From Acidocella sp. KAb 2-4 (GTDB taxonomy: Bacteria; Pseudomonadota; Alphaproteobacteria; Acetobacterales; Acetobacteraceae), in assembly GCF_020567705.1 (NCBI RefSeq), contig NZ_JAJDJU010000009.1, forward strand, positions 1-64,000: a stretch of DNA of 64,000 bases, read 5' to 3'. The translations under genes were made by a program, and so were the position numbers. The notes under the pieces were generated by a model. It saw only the letters and a list, made by a program, of their open reading frames with translations. It made no database searches and was not told the origin of the DNA. Within the stretch, counting starts at the first letter, position 1. The number at the start of each line of letters is the position of its first letter. This document shows, piece by piece, positions 30,831 through 36,846 of the stretch.

Positions 30831-31478
30831 TCACGCGTGCAGAGCGGTGAGCCCCAGCCGCGCGGCCAGGGCGCCGAGCATGGTGAACAGCGCCACGCTG
30901 CCCATCTGCCAGACCAGAACCATCATCATCGTATCCGCCGCGTGGAACAGCGGCAGCGCCAGCTCGGCGGCGGCGGCGGCGGCCATGGCCCCGCACAGGC
31001 AGGCATGTGTGGTGCGGAATTTGGCCGAGCGGCGCAACAGCCAGACCATCGCCACGGCCGGCATCAGCGCGGTGATGGCGATGGCGGGCACGCAAATCCA
31101 GTCCGCGTGCAGTTCCAGCGCGGCGCCGTTCGTTTGCACGGCGAGCACGAAGCATTGCCGGCCCAGTTCGGCCAGCCAGAGCAGGAAGGCGGCGACCGGC
31201 ATCAGCAGCTTCCAACCCGGCTCGTCCGGCCGGCCGGCGCAGAAGGCGGCATAGGCCGAGATCACCGTGGTGGCGGCGGCCAGGATTTCGGCAGTGGCGA
31301 AACGCGGCTGCATGAGCAAGGCGAGCAGATGCGGGCGCGGCCCCATCACCAAAACCATCACGGCCAGCACCGGCAGCGTGACCAGCAGCCAACGTGCGGT
31401 GAGCGCGCCCGGCGGCAGGGCCCGGCGCACGGGTTTGGCGTTCTGCGCCAATTGGGCGATCAGATCTTCAGTTTTCAT
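30831..31478 (-). CDS. nrsF: NrsF family (DUF1109) membrane anti-sigma factor
   Basis: About 215 residues from the ATG at 31478, preceded by AAAGGGGG. The N-terminus MKTEDLIAQLAQNAKPVRR is the NrsF signature, and six hydrophobic helices follow. In Caulobacter NrsF holds SigF at the inner membrane until chromate, cadmium or copper type stress releases it. The gene overlaps the sigma factor gene by 11 bases, so they are translated in coupled fashion. The charged N-terminal segment would contact the sigma factor. Confidence 0.9.
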   Translation of the reverse strand: MKTEDLIAQLAQNAKPVRRALPPGALTARWLLVTLPVLAVMVLVMGPRPHLLALLMQPRFATAEILAAATTVISAYAAFCAGRPDEPGWKLLMPVAAFLLWLAELGRQCFVLAVQTNGAALELHADWICVPAIAITALMPAVAMVWLLRRSAKFRTTHACLCGAMAAAAAAELALPLFHAADTMMMVLVWQMGSVALFTMLGALAARLGLTALHA

Positions 31479-32037
31479 CACTGCCCCCTTTCAGGGCCTG
31501 TTTCAGCCTTTGCATGGCTCTGAAGGATGCCACTTTCAAGGCGGAGATCGACAGGCCGGTCTCGGCTTCCGCCTCCTTCAATGAGAGTTCTCGCAGTTTG
31601 AGCATCTCCAGCACTTGCCGGTCGCGCGCACCCAGCCCCGCCAGCGCGTCCATGACGCGATGCTGGTCGGCGTCTTGCTCCTGGGTGTCGCGCGTCATCA
31701 GCGCCCCCGCATCGGGGGAGATATCGTCGATCGCCGTTTCGCGCCCGCTATGGCGCTGGCGGTGGCGGCGCACATCCGCGCCGCGCAGCTTCATGATGCC
31801 GAACAGGAAGGGCTGCGCGGGGCGGTCCGGGTCGTAGAGATGGCGGTTTTGGTGCAGGGCGAGCAATGTTTCCTGCACGATGTCCTCGATGTCGGCGGCG
31901 CTGGAGCCGGGCCAGCGTGCCCGCGCGCGCCGTCGCAGCCAGGGCAAGGCGGCAGCCAGCAGCCTGGCATAAGCGCGCGCGTCGCCATCTTGCGCCGCGG
32001 CCAGCCAGACGCGCCAATTTGGATCCTCGTCCGACAT
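31468..32037 (-). CDS. sigF: ECF sigma factor, SigF-like
   Basis: A 189-residue sigma factor from the ATG at 32037, preceded by GGGAGGAAGA; longer readings lack support. Region 2 is visible in the segment IEDIVQETLLALHQNRHLYD, and region 4 in RQVLEMLKLRELSLKEAEAE plus LSISALKVASFRAMQRLKQAL. The next gene encodes NrsF, its expected membrane anti-sigma factor, so I assign it to the SigF group described in Caulobacter. Three identical GTAACC-N16-CGAA promoters in the neighbourhood, including one ahead of its own operon, are the probable targets. Confidence 0.9.
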   Translation of the reverse strand: MSDEDPNWRVWLAAAQDGDARAYARLLAAALPWLRRRARARWPGSSAADIEDIVQETLLALHQNRHLYDPDRPAQPFLFGIMKLRGADVRRHRQRHSGRETAIDDISPDAGALMTRDTQEQDADQHRVMDALAGLGARDRQVLEMLKLRELSLKEAEAETGLSISALKVASFRAMQRLKQALKGGSDEN

Positions 32038-32098
32038 TCTTCCTCCCGAGCGGTGCGACGCTACCGCCTGCATGGGGGGTTGCCAATCCGCAATGGCG

Positions 32099-32740
32099 CT
32101 ACTCATCGCTCAACGCCAATTTATCGCGCAGGCGGGCCAGCTTGGCGGGCAGGTCAATGCGCGCGGTGCTGAGGATATCGAGGCGCTCATCGGCCAGAGG
32201 ATCGGCCGGGGCGATTTGCGCGCCGTGGCGGGTCAGGCGCGCATCGCGCCGGCGCAGCAACGCGACGATTTCGGGGCGGTAGAGGACAAACAGCGCGCCG
32301 AGCGCGCGGTTCACGGGCTCCGGCCCAGGGGCGTCGTGCCAGCGCATCTGGGGCAGCCGCGGGATCAACGCCTCGGCGGGGTGAAACTCATCCGCGGTGA
32401 CCCAAAGATTGGTGGTGAAGACGCGGGCAGGGCGGCCGGTTTGGTCCAGCCCGATGGCCGCGACATGGGTGAGGCGGCCCGTTTCCTTGCCACGCAGGAA
32501 GCAATGGATATGCCCGCTCTCCACACGCCCGCGATGGGCATGGAAATAGTATTGCGCGCCGGTGGCGGGATCGCTCACATCGTCGGGCGGGTAATGGGTC
32601 AGCGCCTCGAAGGCGGCGCCGTCGAGCAGCGTGGTGACAAGATTGCGCCCCGCGGTTTCGAGTTCGCCGAGCGCCGCCACCAGTTCGACAGCCGCTTGCA
32701 CCTGGTCGTCCGGCGGCATCTTGGGTTGGCGGGGAATCAT
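32099..32740 (-). CDS. Conserved protein of unknown function in the sigF operon
   Basis: A 213-residue protein from the ATG at 32740 with GGAG eight bases upstream; a longer reading would run through the Cys-repeat gene and is rejected. There is no signal peptide or membrane helix, so it is probably cytoplasmic. Notable blocks are EALTHYPPDDVSDPATGAQY, then YFHAHRGRVESGHIHCFLR, with several His (HAH, GHIH), THVAAIGLDQTGRPARVFTTN cut at that point, and WVTADEFHPAEALI. The His-rich centre could bind a metal. I do not recognise the family with certainty. Its place between the Cys-repeat peptide and sigF suggests a role in the same stress response. Confidence 0.75.
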   Translation of the reverse strand: MIPRQPKMPPDDQVQAAVELVAALGELETAGRNLVTTLLDGAAFEALTHYPPDDVSDPATGAQYYFHAHRGRVESGHIHCFLRGKETGRLTHVAAIGLDQTGRPARVFTTNLWVTADEFHPAEALIPRLPQMRWHDAPGPEPVNRALGALFVLYRPEIVALLRRRDARLTRHGAQIAPADPLADERLDILSTARIDLPAKLARLRDKLALSDE

Positions 32741-32798: not shown

Positions 32799-32999
32799 TT
32801 AGTTGCTCTTGCCGGCGCAGGCGCCAGTCTTGCCCGCACACGCGCCAGTCTTACCGGCGCAGGCGCCAGTCTTGCCCGCACAGCTCGCGCTGGTCTGGCC
32901 GGCGCAGGCGGCATGCGCCAGCATCGGGGTGGTGGCGGCGACCAGACCACCGAGCGAGACAGCGGCACCGAGGGTCAGCATGGAGGCTTTGAATTTCAT
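32799..32999 (-). CDS. Exported Cys-Ala-Gly repeat peptide, candidate metallophore precursor
   Basis: A 66-residue protein with AAGG about nine bases before the ATG. Residues 1-30 are a signal peptide (KFKASMLTLG, hydrophobic core, cleavage near AHA-A). The mature part is only about 36 residues and contains five Cys-Ala-Gly units, ACAGQTSAS then SCAGKTGACAGKTGACAGK-type repeats, with cysteines at 32, 40, 47, 54 and 61. The CAGQ tetrad also occurs in the DUF2282 bufferin precursor encoded at 34534. The layout (signal peptide plus short repeats with regularly spaced Cys) resembles low-complexity MNIO substrates of the HvfA type, whose repeat is different (EGKCG). It is the first gene of the sigF operon and has a SigF-type promoter. 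Function as a modified copper or metal chelator is inference. Confidence 0.8.
   Translation of the reverse strand: MKFKASMLTLGAAVSLGGLVAATTPMLAHAACAGQTSASCAGKTGACAGKTGACAGKTGACAGKSN
32821..32883. repeat. Three 21-base tandem repeats inside the Cys-repeat gene
   Basis: Three in-frame 21-base units at 32821-32841, 32842-32862 and 32863-32883 each begin GCGCCAGTCTT, with a partial unit before 32821. They encode the seven-residue repeat containing CAGKTGA. Units alternate between two closely similar versions, suggesting duplication of a 42-base block, so the copy number may vary between strains. Confidence 0.85.
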
Positions 33000-33057: not shown

Positions 33058-33083
33058 TTCGCCGCGAGGCGCGGTCTGGTTAC
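33058..33083 (-). promoter_or_regulatory. SigF-type promoter of the Cys-repeat/sigF/nrsF operon
   Basis: On the minus strand GTAACC (33083-33078) and CGAA (33061-33058) are separated by exactly 16 bases. The -10 element lies 58 bases before the ATG of the Cys-repeat gene. The same elements and spacing occur at two other promoters in this region (33960 and 34460). From memory, GTAACC and CGAA-like elements match the SigF promoter reported in Caulobacter. This makes the sigma factor operon self-activating. Confidence 0.78.
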
Positions 33084-33125
33084 AGGGGGGCGAAAATTTT
33101 TTTGGCCGCGCTATATTGGGCAATC

Positions 33126-33941
33126 ATGCCGCCCCTGTCGCAAGAGGCCGCCGCGCTGCGGCCCGTCATCTCGTTTGGTTTGTTGTTCCTGCTGGCCGGG
33201 GCTGAGGCGCTATGGCCGCGGCGGCCGCGCGCGCTCTCGCGCTGGGGGCGCTGGCCGGGGAATCTCGGCATCGCGGCGCTGGGCGCGCTGGCGGTGAAGC
33301 TGGCGTTTCCGGTAGCGGCCCTCGGTGTCGCCGCGCTCGCCGCGCGGGCGTGCTGGGGCGTGCTGAATTTGGCGTCCATGCCGGAGGGTTTGAAGATCGT
33401 CACGGCGGTTCTGGCGCTGGATTTCGCCATTTATATCCAGCACCGCGTATTCCATGCCGTGCCGGTATTGTGGCGGCTGCACCGTATGCACCATGCCGAT
33501 CTCGATCTCGATGTTACGTCCGGCGCGCGCTTTCACCCGCTGGAGATCATGCTCTCCATGCTCATTAAGATGGGCGTGGTGTTGCTCATCGGCGCACCGC
33601 CCCTCGCGGTGCTGCTGTTCGAAATCATCCTGAACGCGACAGCGATGTTCAACCACAGCAACCTCGCCCTGCCACCCGCGCTGGATGGCGTGCTGCGTCT
33701 CGTGCTGGTCACGCCGGACATGCACCGCGTGCATCATTCGGTGATTCGCGCCGAGACCGACAGCAATTTCGGCTTCAATGTGCCATGGTGGGACCGGCTG
33801 TTTGCCACCTATCGCGCGCAGCCGGCGCAGGGGCAGCTTGGCATGATGATTGGGTTGCCCGCCTTCCGCAAGCCCGGCGCTTCCCGCCTGGATGCGCTGC
33901 TGGTGCAGCCCTTCCTGACGCCGGATGACGGCGCAGCCTGA
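33126..33941 (+). CDS. Sterol desaturase / fatty acid hydroxylase superfamily protein
   Basis: About 271 residues from the ATG at 33126 (a TTG at 33102 is also in frame). It is a membrane protein with hydrophobic helices in the N-terminal half and the di-iron histidine motifs of the family: HRVFH (in YIQHRVFHAVPVLWRLHRMH), HRMHH, and HRVHHS (in TPDMHRVHHSVIRAETDSNF). These ligate a non-haem di-iron centre that hydroxylates or desaturates lipid chains. It lies between the two SigF-type operons but has no such promoter on its own strand, so its link to them is not proven. Confidence 0.88.
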   Translation: MPPLSQEAAALRPVISFGLLFLLAGAEALWPRRPRALSRWGRWPGNLGIAALGALAVKLAFPVAALGVAALAARACWGVLNLASMPEGLKIVTAVLALDFAIYIQHRVFHAVPVLWRLHRMHHADLDLDVTSGARFHPLEIMLSMLIKMGVVLLIGAPPLAVLLFEIILNATAMFNHSNLALPPALDGVLRLVLVTPDMHRVHHSVIRAETDSNFGFNVPWWDRLFATYRAQPAQGQLGMMIGLPAFRKPGASRLDALLVQPFLTPDDGAA

Positions 33942-33959
33942 AAATACCTGGTATCTTCT

Positions 33960-33985
33960 GTAACCTGTGCAGGCGATGTGGCGAA
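33960..33985 (+). promoter_or_regulatory. SigF-type promoter of the small secreted protein gene
   Basis: GTAACC at 33960-33965 and CGAA at 33982-33985 with a 16-base spacer, identical in layout to those at 33058 and 34460. The -10 element lies about 50 bases before the ATG at 34035, similar to the other two. Confidence 0.78.
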
Positions 33986-34034: not shown

Positions 34035-34370
34035 ATGAAACAGCAAAGCTTCGCCGTGATCATCCTCACCGTCGCCTTCGGCATCGGCGCCAGCCTTCCC
34101 GCGCAGGCGGCATCCTTCGCCACCCGGGTTCCCACCGTGAGCGTGAATGTGGCGGCCGTGGAATCGCAGGCCCAGTTGGCACAGACCCTCGCCGCGCAAG
34201 GCTATAGCCATATCACACTGAGTTCGGCCCGGCCCAGCCTTGAAAATCCGCATCCCGAGCTCAGCCCGTCCAACACCCAGCATTGCGCCTTGACGCCGGT
34301 GCATAATGGCTGGAACGGCGTGGCGCAAAAGAGCGGCGAGACCGTGCAGGTTTATGTGACCGGCCTATAG
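34035..34370 (+). CDS. Small secreted protein, SigF-controlled, unknown function
   Basis: A 111-residue protein with CAGGAG about nine bases before the ATG. Residues 1-26 are a signal peptide (FAVIILTVAFGIGASLPAQA, then A-S). The mature part of about 85 residues has one Cys (HCALTPVHNGWNGVAQ) and the segment LAQTLAAQGYSHITLSSARP, which faintly recalls PepSY-like folds. I do not recognise the family. The gene is a single unit with its own SigF-type promoter and a strong terminator, so it is likely an abundant periplasmic member of the stress response. Confidence 0.8.
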   Translation: MKQQSFAVIILTVAFGIGASLPAQAASFATRVPTVSVNVAAVESQAQLAQTLAAQGYSHITLSSARPSLENPHPELSPSNTQHCALTPVHNGWNGVAQKSGETVQVYVTGL

Positions 34371-34437: not shown

Positions 34438-34459
34438 GTGCGGTTTTTGGATTCCGCCT

Positions 34460-34485
34460 GTAACCTTTCGCCGGATCGGCGCGAA
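34460..34485 (+). promoter_or_regulatory. SigF-type promoter of the bufferin operon
   Basis: GTAACC at 34460-34465 and CGAA at 34482-34485 with a 16-base spacer. The flanking CTGTAACC is also shared with the promoters at 33960 and (minus strand) 33083. The -10 element is 48 bases before the bufferin precursor ATG. Confidence 0.8.
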
Positions 34486-34533: not shown

Positions 34534-34809
34534 ATGGAACGCCGCAATTTCGCCGCCAAAATTCTCGCCGCCGCCGCGGGCATCGCCGCCGTCGCCACCC
34601 CGATTGCCGCCAATGCGCAAACCTCCGGCGCCAAGCTGGAAAAATGTTACGGTATTAACGCCATCGGCCGCAATGACTGCGCCGCCGGCACCCATTCCTG
34701 TGCCGGCCAGGCGACCATGGCGCGCGATCCCGCCTCCTTCGTGCTACTGCCAACCGGTGACTGCTCGAAGATCGCTGGCGGCTCCCTGACCCCCGGTAAA
34801 GCCTCGTAG
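34534..34809 (+). CDS. DUF2282 bufferin-type metallophore precursor
   Basis: A 91-residue protein with AAGGAG about eight bases upstream. Residues 1-28 form a signal peptide (KILAAAAGIAAVATPIAANA, cleavage near NAQ). The mature part has the four conserved cysteines of the DUF2282 family at 38 (EKCYGI), 49 (NDCAAG), 56 (HSCAGQ) and 77 (GDCSKI), and ends AGGSLTPGKAS. In Caulobacter such peptides (GigA/BufA) are modified by the adjacent MNIO enzyme, exported and bind copper. The next genes are that enzyme and its partner, so this is a RiPP precursor with high probability. Confidence 0.93.
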   Translation: MERRNFAAKILAAAAGIAAVATPIAANAQTSGAKLEKCYGINAIGRNDCAAGTHSCAGQATMARDPASFVLLPTGDCSKIAGGSLTPGKAS

Positions 34810-34818
34810 AGCCGCGCG

Positions 34819-35658
34819 ATGGCACCGCCAGTTTCCGCTGGGATTGGGCTGCGCCTGCCGCACCACGCCACGTTTCTGGCGAGCAAGCCGGATACAGGGT
34901 GGGTGGAAGTGCATAGCGAGAACTATTTCAGCGCGCCGGCGCTGGCGGTGCTGACCCGCGTGCGGGAGGATTATCCGGTCTCGCTGCACGGCGTCGGGCT
35001 TTCACTTGGCAGTGCTGATGGGGTGGATGCGGCACATCTCGCCCGCCTGCGGGCGCTGGCGGAGCGCATCGAGCCCGTGCTGGTTTCGGAGCATCTCGCC
35101 TGGACCGGCGTCAACGGCGTGCATCTCGCTGATCTGCTGCCGCTGCCGCTGCACGAGGATAGTCTCACCCTTTTCTGCCGCAACGTCGAGCGCACGCAGG
35201 AGGCGTTGAAGCGCCGTATCCTTGTGGAAAACCCGTCGACCTATCTGCGTTTTCCGGAATCCACGATACCGGAGCCGGAATTTCTGACCGAGCTGACGCG
35301 CCGTACCGGCTGCGGGTTGATTTGCGATATCAACAACATCCATGTCGGCGCGCATAATCACGGATGGAACGCGCACACCTATTTGCGCGCCCTGCCTGCC
35401 GCAGCGGTGGCGGAATATCATCTGGCCGGGCACATGGCGGGCGACGGCGCAACCGCCGGGTTGCTGCTGGACACGCATGACCGCGAGATCGCCGAGCCTG
35501 TCTGGGCGTTGTTTGAAGATGCGCTCAGCATCATCGGCCCGCGCCCGGCGATGATCGAGCGCGACGCCCATCTCCCGCCCCTCGCAGACTTGCTGGCCGA
35601 AGCCTGGAAGGCGCAAACCATGCTCGAGAGGAGCGCCGCCAATGCTCTCGCTGCTTGA
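34819..35658 (+). CDS. MNIO (DUF692) family multinuclear iron RiPP maturase
   Basis: A 279-residue TIM-barrel enzyme starting nine bases after the precursor stop. Family blocks with the metal ligands are present: EVHSENYFSAP, SLHGVGLSLG, VSEHLAWTG, ILVENPSTYL, CDINNIHVGAHNHG, EYHLAGH and LLLDTHDREIAEPVW. MNIO enzymes use two or three iron ions to convert precursor cysteines into oxazolone-thioamide or thiooxazole-type groups. Its target should be the DUF2282 peptide and possibly the Cys-repeat peptide at 32799. It overlaps the DUF2063 gene by 17 bases. Confidence 0.95.
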   Translation: MAPPVSAGIGLRLPHHATFLASKPDTGWVEVHSENYFSAPALAVLTRVREDYPVSLHGVGLSLGSADGVDAAHLARLRALAERIEPVLVSEHLAWTGVNGVHLADLLPLPLHEDSLTLFCRNVERTQEALKRRILVENPSTYLRFPESTIPEPEFLTELTRRTGCGLICDINNIHVGAHNHGWNAHTYLRALPAAAVAEYHLAGHMAGDGATAGLLLDTHDREIAEPVWALFEDALSIIGPRPAMIERDAHLPPLADLLAEAWKAQTMLERSAANALAA

Positions 35659-36385
35659 GCGTCAGCAGGCATTTCAGGCGATGCTGCTGGCCTCCAGCAG
35701 CGATGAGCGGCAAGCCGGCATCGCCGTGTACCGCAACAACATACGCGCCGCCCTAACCCTCGCCCTGCGCCTGAGCTTTCCCGCGATCCTGCGGCTTTTG
35801 GGCGAGGATTGTTTCCGCGCCCATGCGGCGCGGTTCATCTGCGCGCAGCCGCCACGCGAGGGCGATCTGCACCTTTATGGCGACGCCTTTGCCGCCGCGC
35901 TCGCGGGTTCGCCGCTCGCGGCGGCGCTGCCTTACCTCGCCGATGTGGCCCGGCTCGACTGGGCGGCGCATCGCGCCTTGCACGCCCCATTGGCCGCGCT
36001 GCTCACTCCGCAAGCCCTGCGCGCTGCGCAGGGGGATAGCGTCTTCGTCGCGCAGCCCTCGCTCTCGCGGCTCACCCTGCGCCGCGATGCCCGCGCGATC
36101 TGGACGGCGGTGCTTGAGCAGGACGACGCCGCGCTCGCCCGCATCGTACCGGACCCCGGCGAAATCCATGTCATGGTCATGCGCGGCCTGGGCGGATTGG
36201 AGATTTTCGAGGTCTCGCCAGAGATATTCGCCTTCGCCGGGGCGCTCGTTCAGGGCCTCACGCTGGAACAAGCCTGCGCCGGCATGGGCGATGCCGAGGC
36301 CGCCGAGGCGCTTGGCTTGTGTCTCACCCGCAACTTATTCACCGGTTTCACGCCAACAGGAAGGGAGGAACTTCCATGTCCATAG
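35642..36385 (+). CDS. DUF2063 family MNIO partner protein
   Basis: A 247-residue protein with GAGGAG nine bases before the ATG, which lies inside the MNIO gene. The N-terminus LLERQQAFQAMLLAS followed by GIAVYRNNIRAALTLALRLSF is the DUF2063 (HvfC/BufC/GigC) domain, which supplies precursor recognition to the MNIO enzyme in characterised systems. The C-terminal half is a second helical domain. It overlaps doxX by 10 bases, so the four genes are translationally linked. Confidence 0.93.
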   Translation: MLSLLERQQAFQAMLLASSSDERQAGIAVYRNNIRAALTLALRLSFPAILRLLGEDCFRAHAARFICAQPPREGDLHLYGDAFAAALAGSPLAAALPYLADVARLDWAAHRALHAPLAALLTPQALRAAQGDSVFVAQPSLSRLTLRRDARAIWTAVLEQDDAALARIVPDPGEIHVMVMRGLGGLEIFEVSPEIFAFAGALVQGLTLEQACAGMGDAEAAEALGLCLTRNLFTGFTPTGREELPCP

Positions 36386-36846
36386 CCGCGACACTCGGCC
36401 AGCCTTCGCATCTTCTCGCGCGCCTGACCAAACTCGTTGGTCTGTTCAATCATTTTCCCTATGCGGTGGTGGCGCTCACGGCCCGCGTGGCGCTGGCGCA
36501 GGTGTTCTGGAGCTCGGCGCGGACGCACCTCGCCAGCTGGGACACGACGCTCTACATGTTCGCCAACTCCTACCAGGTGCCGCTGCTGCCGCCGATATTG
36601 GCGGCTTATCTGGCGGTGGCGCAGGAGGTGGCGATGCCGCCCTTGCTGCTGCTCGGGCTCGGCACCCGTTTCGCCGCGCTGGCGCTGCTCGGCATGACGG
36701 CGGTGATCGAAATTTTCGTCTATCCGCAGGCTTGGCCGACGCATATCCAGTGGGCCGCGATGATGCTCGTGCTGATCTCGCAAGGCGGCGGCAAATTCTC
36801 GCTCGACGCGCTGATTGCCCGGCTCGCCCGCTCGCGTCTATCGTAA
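36376..36846 (+). CDS. DoxX family membrane protein
   Basis: A 156-residue protein from the ATG at 36376 with AAGGGAGGAA upstream. Four hydrophobic helices are visible, with the DoxX-type segment LTARVALAQVFWSSARTHL near the first helix and EVAMPPLLLLGLGTRFAALA later. It is the fourth gene of the gigABCD/hvfABCD-like order (precursor, MNIO, DUF2063, DoxX). Its role in metallophore systems is unknown, perhaps membrane redox or export. An MFS gene follows after 21 bases with no terminator. Confidence 0.92.
   Translation: MSIAATLGQPSHLLARLTKLVGLFNHFPYAVVALTARVALAQVFWSSARTHLASWDTTLYMFANSYQVPLLPPILAAYLAVAQEVAMPPLLLLGLGTRFAALALLGMTAVIEIFVYPQAWPTHIQWAAMMLVLISQGGGKFSLDALIARLARSRLS

Follow-up and report, generated by a model that had tools for sequence, protein, structure and literature searches.

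The 64,000-nucleotide stretch of DNA analyzed here (the window) carries a short gene for a putatively exported peptide with regularly spaced cysteines, and the question it raises is which protein, if any, acts on those cysteines. The initial annotation proposed that the MNIO enzyme encoded at 34819 modifies the peptide in trans, which would make it a second copper-binding RiPP. In this work, we compare the peptide and its genomic setting with those of relatives and with known cysteine-peptide systems, and we consider the gene directly downstream of the peptide gene, which encodes a DUF6969 protein and was absent from the earlier description.

The peptide gene and its SigF promoter motif

The minus-strand open reading frame at 32799..32999 encodes 66 amino acids, with the translation MKFKASMLTLGAAVSLGGLVAATTPMLAHA|ACAGQTSASCAGKTGACAGKTGACAGKTGACAGKSN (signal peptide|mature part). 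The predicted signal peptide (assigned by eye and with a crude script) ends in AHA, and the remaining 36 residues hold five cysteines, at residues 32, 40, 47, 54 and 61 (spacing 8, 7, 7, 7), in a tract that reads CAGQTSASCAGK(TGACAGK)x3 and comprises one CAGQ and four CAGK units. The translation thus agrees with the original description of a 66-residue product made of a signal peptide and about 36 residues with cysteines at a period of seven (eight once) embedded in CAGK/CAGQ. The repeat is beyond chance, since a six-frame reading of 1882 kb of partly overlapping sequence gives 5 reading frames with at least three C[AS]G[KQ] units, namely the peptide and four orthologues. Relative to its close relatives at L022, L023, L024 and L026, the gene differs synonymously at 26-28 of its 66 codons and nonsynonymously at 5-8, with all five cysteines kept, while the more diverged L021 differs by 8 synonymous and 8 nonsynonymous changes over the first 38 codons. 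Since the differences from the close relatives are mostly synonymous, the codon comparison identifies 32799..32999 as a real gene, selected as a protein. No Pfam family matches the peptide at its cut-off; there is a composition match alone (MSSP, 13.5 bits, cut-off 21.2) and none to DUF2282 (PF10048). No NCBIfam model matches at an E value of 1, those for BufA2 (NF050166) and CefA (NF038108) included. A second copy was not found in the same genome, where the search returned four weak matches (E 0.3 to 4.6).

The peptide gene is the first of a same-strand run, peptide-DUF6969-sigF-nrsF, in agreement with its earlier placement in a sigF operon. The DUF6969 gene (32099..32740, minus strand; PF22308, 180 bits, cut-off 27) follows after a gap of 58 bases. 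Next comes the gene for the ECF sigma factor SigF (31468..32106, minus strand; Pfam Sigma70_r2 and r4_2), whose start may be near 32037, as the relatives at L021 and L027 begin at the equivalent of MSDEDPNW. The run ends with the anti-sigma factor NrsF (30831..31481, minus strand; PF06532, 83 bits, cut-off 26.8), on which the NCBIfam NrsF model reaches 22 of 300 bits, far under its cut-off. The exact motif TGTAACC-N16-CGAA was found three times in the window, against 0.01 expected: at 33058..33084 (minus strand), 58 bases before the ATG of the peptide; at 34459..34485 (plus strand), before the bufferin operon; and at 33959..33985 (plus strand), before the reading frame at 34035. The peptide and DUF2282 genes therefore do have a promoter motif of the same type, as had been noted. 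In Caulobacter, GTAACC-N16-CGAA is the motif of SigF, which responds to chromium and cadmium and has NrsF as its negative regulator (PMC3511200); control of the peptide gene by SigF in the present host would be consistent with this arrangement.

The bufferin operon starts with the precursor BufA1 (DUF2282; 34534..34809, plus strand; PF10048, 76 bits, cut-off 22.4), followed on the same strand by the MNIO maturase BufB (34819..35658; NF050167, 354 bits, cut-off 310), its DUF2063 partner BufC (35642..36385; PF09836, 70.5 bits, cut-off 27.2) and a DoxX/HvfX-like membrane protein (36379..36846; PF07681, 52 bits, cut-off 23.6). The initial annotation was right in placing an MNIO maturase beside the DUF2282 precursor, and right that CAGQ occurs at a conserved cysteine of the latter: the HSCAGQ of BufA1 includes one of the precursor's two central cysteines, which in Buf1 are those that carry the modification (PMC12452194). 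Two other genes lie in this region. A fatty acid hydroxylase (33126..33941, plus strand) is encoded between the peptide gene and the bufferin operon and is matched in 6 of the best 80 of at least 544 DUF6969 loci, and an exported 111-residue protein with one cysteine and its own SigF motif (34035..34370, plus strand; no family in Pfam or NCBIfam) was found again, among the same 80, only in L021.

DUF6969 and the exported cysteine tracts around it

Among the matches listed from named genomes, those nearest to the window come from Acidocella, which is therefore probably its genus or a close neighbor. In the 38 genomes of the host genus, a convincing peptide is present in 11 (the search gave 13 matches at an E value of 0.01, with G579 and G600 left out as weak and the peptides of G577 and G584 accepted on scores alone). 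DUF6969 is present in 16 of the 38, including 11 of the 11 peptide-bearing ones (Fisher 4e-6); the other 5 of the 16 gave no peptide match.

The same association extends well beyond the genus. From named genomes, at least 544 DUF6969 relatives were confirmed, of which the best 80 were kept as loci, near copies included. In 54 of these best 80 of at least 544, a crude fixed motif finds a cysteine tract within 3 kb of DUF6969, and reading frames with the motif number 65 in 494 kb near the gene and 5 in 814 kb far from it. In 14 more of the 80, shorter or looser tracts are seen by eye, a post hoc count that takes in forms such as the Acidiphilium versions of the peptide, which retain two cysteines only. 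In the other 12 of the best 80, neither the motif nor inspection by eye reveals a tract; two of these 12 loci begin close to the end of a contig. A stricter count of exported peptides around DUF6969 gave 51 in 231 kb near and 19 in 1027 kb far, with antisense reading frames on both sides. The tract takes different forms in different hosts: CAGK in Acidocella relatives, NPCAAK in Gallionella and Sideroxydans, CKGC in Legionella, NPCNPC in Tepidicaulis, GNPCAPK in Afipia, and others. In 17 of the 54 tract loci (from the best 80 of at least 544), the 200 bases ahead of the tract gene contain an exact SigF motif. The 80 also include a cyanobacterium (Vulcanococcus, L099) with DUF6969 and no tract within 3 kb.

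An even draw of 397 Pseudomonadota genomes, in which DUF6969 occurs in 22, gave a comparable picture. Of the 22 DUF6969 places outside the host's own genome, 20 were taken (G358 and G421 were left out), and the original motif finds a tract in 12 of 20, or in 11 of 18 once two loci that overlap the best-80 set (L129 with L094, L135 with L097) are removed. With an NPCAAK query, DUF6969 is present in 11 of the 22 matched genomes and in 11 of the 375 others (Fisher 4e-10), a count that retains all 22 matches, although several, being arginine-rich or interrupted by stops, look spurious. Five genomes (G206, G235, G259, G309 and G330) have real NPC tracts and no DUF6969 match, so DUF6969 is not universal. 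Four of them, G330, G309, G259 and G235 (loci L172, L173, L176, L168 and L188), each encode both an NPC-type peptide and a tract-bearing cytochrome. On a DUF6969 tree with 73 rows, the label for a tract needs 10 changes, against a mean of 10.5 for shuffled labels, and does not cluster beyond the shuffles.

The signal peptides connect these different tracts. A profile HMM was built from 24 signal peptides, chosen by hand among NPC-type proteins, and compared with a crude set of 249 exported reading frames as negatives (four truncated copies of Acidiphilium test peptides, included in this set, were put aside). All 11 signal peptides of CAGK/CSGK type score 14.8-32.4 bits, against 13.8 for the best other exported reading frame. 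The window peptide ranks 6 of 262 with 23.3 bits, while BufA1 and the 34035 protein score 9.1 and 8.9. Additionally, two intermediates, L027 and L029, mix the types, with CAGQ/CSAAK and PCAAQ/PCQAK tracts upstream of orthologous DUF6969 genes. Because of its position before DUF6969, these intermediates and the common signal peptides, the CAGK peptide belongs, by sequence comparison, with the DUF6969-linked exported cysteine tracts, and it shows all three features that define the set: DUF6969 within 3 kb, a signal peptide of the common family, and at least three close cysteine units (here five). The retention of the signal peptide while the tract drifts may reflect a leader recognized by a partner, or common descent only.

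The DUF6969 protein itself has no signal peptide that could be seen by eye, and is therefore expected to stay cytoplasmic. A set of histidines with one aspartate (H49, D57, H67, H69, H77, H79 and H92) is invariant in all 55 aligned sequences. Its AlphaFold2 model is confident (mean pLDDT 94.1), and fold comparison of this model gave no information on activity. In the open PMC literature we found neither the name DUF6969, nor six of the tract strings, nor a match to cytochrome/repeat terms; an earlier notice, for example in supplementary tables, is possible.

Some tracts near DUF6969 are parts of larger proteins, in which the fusion partner is a cytochrome c domain of SoxA/TsdA type (PF21342), cytochrome P460 or a BLH phosphatase domain. 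Cytochromes c of SoxA/TsdA type that have an NPCAAK tract at one end or at both are encoded near DUF6969 in L085, L073, L093, L094, L096, L060, L046 and L090 (assigned by domain scan in L085 and by likeness in the other seven), and proteins resembling cytochrome P460, with NPCAA-type tracts of some length, in L053, L057, L067 and L077 (above cut-off in L053, below it in L057 and by eye in L067 and L077). In L079 and L087, exported proteins of BLH-phosphatase type with NPCAA tracts (L079 by likeness to L087) adjoin DUF6969 and a sulfur transporter. Within about 10 kb of DUF6969, the best 80 of at least 544 loci contain NrsF in 26, SigF in 25, a DsbD-type membrane gene in 23 and MNIO in 11; a sulfur transporter (PF04143) is upstream in 4 of the same 80. 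The DsbD-type gene separates the peptide gene from DUF6969 in several Acidocella relatives; the window and L021 do not have it at this place.

Comparison with MNIO loci and known cysteine peptides

The peptide shares features with several described systems. Like the bufferins BufA1 (DUF2282) and BufA2, which are MNIO-modified copper RiPPs, it is a small cysteine peptide with a Sec-type signal; SigF/NrsF genes also accompany BufA1, and CAGQ or CKGQ stands at cysteines in these precursors. It differs from them in the lack of a DUF2282 or BufA2 match, in the tandem tract and in having DUF6969 as its partner rather than the MNIO-DUF2063 pair. With the EGKCG repeats of HvfA, oxazolin and fontiphorin (the captophorins, whose motif groups are EGKCG and Lys-Cys/Cys-Lys; PMC13097082) it has in common the exported tandem cysteine repeats, but its sequence contains neither EGKCG nor a Lys-Cys/Cys-Lys dyad, and its gene does not stand before an MNIO gene. 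The contrast between a CAGKTGA-type repeat and the EGKCG of HvfA, drawn at the outset, is thus correct. CefA, a RiPP with a cysteine at every fifth position (NF038108), also has cysteines that recur at a constant interval in a low-complexity sequence, whereas the period here is seven; the CefA model reaches the wider-set tract of L057 below threshold (22.3 bits, cut-off 30). The CxxxxC family, as described by Antoine et al. 2025 (PMC12452194), likewise combines a signal peptide with periodic cysteines, and differs in being defined beside MNIO genes; it may overlap with the NPCAA tracts. In sum, the peptide system resembles a bufferin system in its presumed working, yet it fails every bufferin, HvfA and CefA sequence test made here.

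In its gene order, the peptide does not directly precede the MNIO gene; it forms a divergent unit with its own promoter motif, and DUF6969 is the next gene. Within the genus, MNIO is found in 8 of the 11 genomes with the peptide and in 2 of the 27 others, although two of the eight are imperfect (a partial match in G577 and a stop in G601). The three peptide genomes where MNIO is missing are G580 (98% complete) and G592 (93%), which have looser peptides, and G596 (80%), whose peptide is strict CAGK. Strict CAGK peptides were read in five genomes (G000, G587, G596, G603 and G607), and MNIO is present in all of these but the incomplete G596, so that MNIO may act on the CAGK form. That peptide, DUF6969 and MNIO occur together in the genus is as expected, since they are parts of one island.

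Beyond the genus, Acidiphilium and other relatives have the peptide and DUF6969 and no MNIO. Where a genome has DUF6969 with a tract close to it, MNIO is present in 36 of 66 (17 of 35 loci chosen by eye plus 19 of the 33 remaining tract loci, with two genomes in both, MNIO-negative), near the 176 of 397 in the phylum draw. In those 397 Pseudomonadota genomes, NPCAAK tracts are not associated with MNIO (8 of 22 matched genomes against 168 of 375, p 0.5), and DUF6969 has no clear association with it (13 of 22 against 163 of 375, p 0.19). For a control, 20 MNIO loci were taken from genomes with no DUF6969 match (the first listed, one per genus, from a score-sorted list). Exported peptides with a cysteine run occur in 15 of these 20, by eye mostly bufferin-type precursors, compared with 47 of the best 80 and 13 of the 20 phylum-draw DUF6969 loci. 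The cysteine-unit motif also matches 8 of the 20 MNIO loci, because BufA2-type precursors carry CKGQ. A tandem xPC run, in turn, is present in 49 of the best 80 and 13 of the 20 DUF6969 loci (antisense matches unsorted) and in 3 of the 20 MNIO loci, apparently antisense there; on these motif counts, the tandem xPC tract is what distinguishes DUF6969 loci from MNIO loci. DUF6969 is the stricter and steadier genomic partner of the peptide, more so than MNIO, and its link to the peptide is an association in genomes rather than evidence of function.

The proposal of an MNIO substrate in trans is consequently supported in part. The exported multi-cysteine peptide, the SigF motif, the adjacent bufferin operon and the CAGQ match all agree with it, and MNIO tracks the peptide in the genus, while NPCAAK tracts do not track MNIO across the phylum. 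Homologues in genomes with no MNIO gene, which the initial annotation had named as evidence against itself, were found in some cases, namely in G580, G592, Acidiphilium and other relatives, and 30 of the 66 tract genomes have no MNIO; several of the genomes concerned are incomplete.

A proposed DUF6969-linked exported poly-cysteine peptide and the alternatives

Our best reading, which we hold with about even confidence, is that the gene encodes a SigF-induced, exported poly-cysteine peptide that works with DUF6969. The peptide would belong to a wide range of poly-cysteine tracts exported by Sec, with DUF6969 as their steadiest partner. Metals, or other thiol-reactive stress, would free SigF from NrsF, and the freed SigF would switch on the peptide-DUF6969-sigF-nrsF run together with the neighboring bufferin operon. 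Before the precursor is exported, DUF6969 would most likely meet it in the cytoplasm, possibly by recognizing the conserved signal-peptide sequence, and would modify, metallate or shield the cysteines of the tract, which may then serve as a periplasmic sink for soft metals or thiols beside bufferin. A more specific form of this idea, which we put forward only tentatively, is that DUF6969 acts as enzyme or metallochaperone for a so far undescribed, MNIO-independent class of exported poly-cysteine RiPPs and proteins, in which the signal peptide also serves as the leader and the tract is a portable module that has also been grafted onto cytochromes and phosphatase-like domains.

Modification of the CAGK cysteines in trans by BufB and its DUF2063 partner, giving a second copper-binding RiPP, seems to us rather unlikely, even though it has several points in its favor. 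BufB and its own precursor adjoin the peptide gene behind a SigF motif, the HSCAGQ of that precursor holds one of the two central cysteines modified in Buf1 (PMC12452194), and BufA2-type precursors beside MNIOs likewise carry CKGQ/CAG motifs. One MNIO pair is reported to have accepted several cysteine contexts, and not others (PMC13097082), and within the genus, where peptide and MNIO go together (8 of 11 against 2 of 27), MNIO is missing from a single one of the five strict CAGK genomes read, one that is 80% complete. Against this stand the 3 of 11 genus peptide genomes that lack MNIO and the partial or stop-containing MNIOs of G577 and G601, the 30 of 66 DUF6969-and-tract genomes where it is missing, and the absence of an association between NPC tracts and MNIO in the 397 genomes; moreover, the MNIO operon already contains a precursor of its own, and the peptide is matched by no MNIO-substrate model.

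The tract might instead never be modified and act as a plain, metallothionein-like thiol peptide in the periplasm, with DUF6969 acting in regulation or in another step. A simple sink would permit the wide drift of the tract (CAGK, PCAAK, CKGC, NPCNPC) with its cysteines kept, and the DsbD-type membrane genes in 23 of the best 80 of at least 544 loci could keep exported thiols reduced; the strong and wide link to DUF6969 and the common signal-peptide family would nevertheless be left with no reason, and we regard this explanation as improbable. The fused cytochromes and the neighboring sulfur transporters bring up a third possibility, a role in sulfur handling: the exported cysteines would carry sulfane sulfur, or serve the fused cytochromes as thiol substrates, and metal stress would be secondary. 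The fusions to PF21342 cytochrome c, cytochrome P460 and the BLH phosphatase domain suggest this, as does PF04143 upstream in 4 of the best 80 of at least 544 loci, whereas the run in the window contains no fused-cytochrome, phosphatase or transporter gene and Caulobacter SigF answers chromium and cadmium (PMC3511200), and we give it the smallest chance of all.

If the reading of a SigF-induced peptide that works with DUF6969 is true, there would be a second widespread exported cysteine-peptide system beside the MNIO bufferins, with a common SigF switch in many alphaproteobacteria. The histidine-rich DUF6969 would become a candidate handler of exported cysteine peptides and gain a testable role, for which a short peptide with one partner gene would be a minimal test case. 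It would also be a warning that cysteine peptides encoded near an MNIO need not be MNIO substrates.
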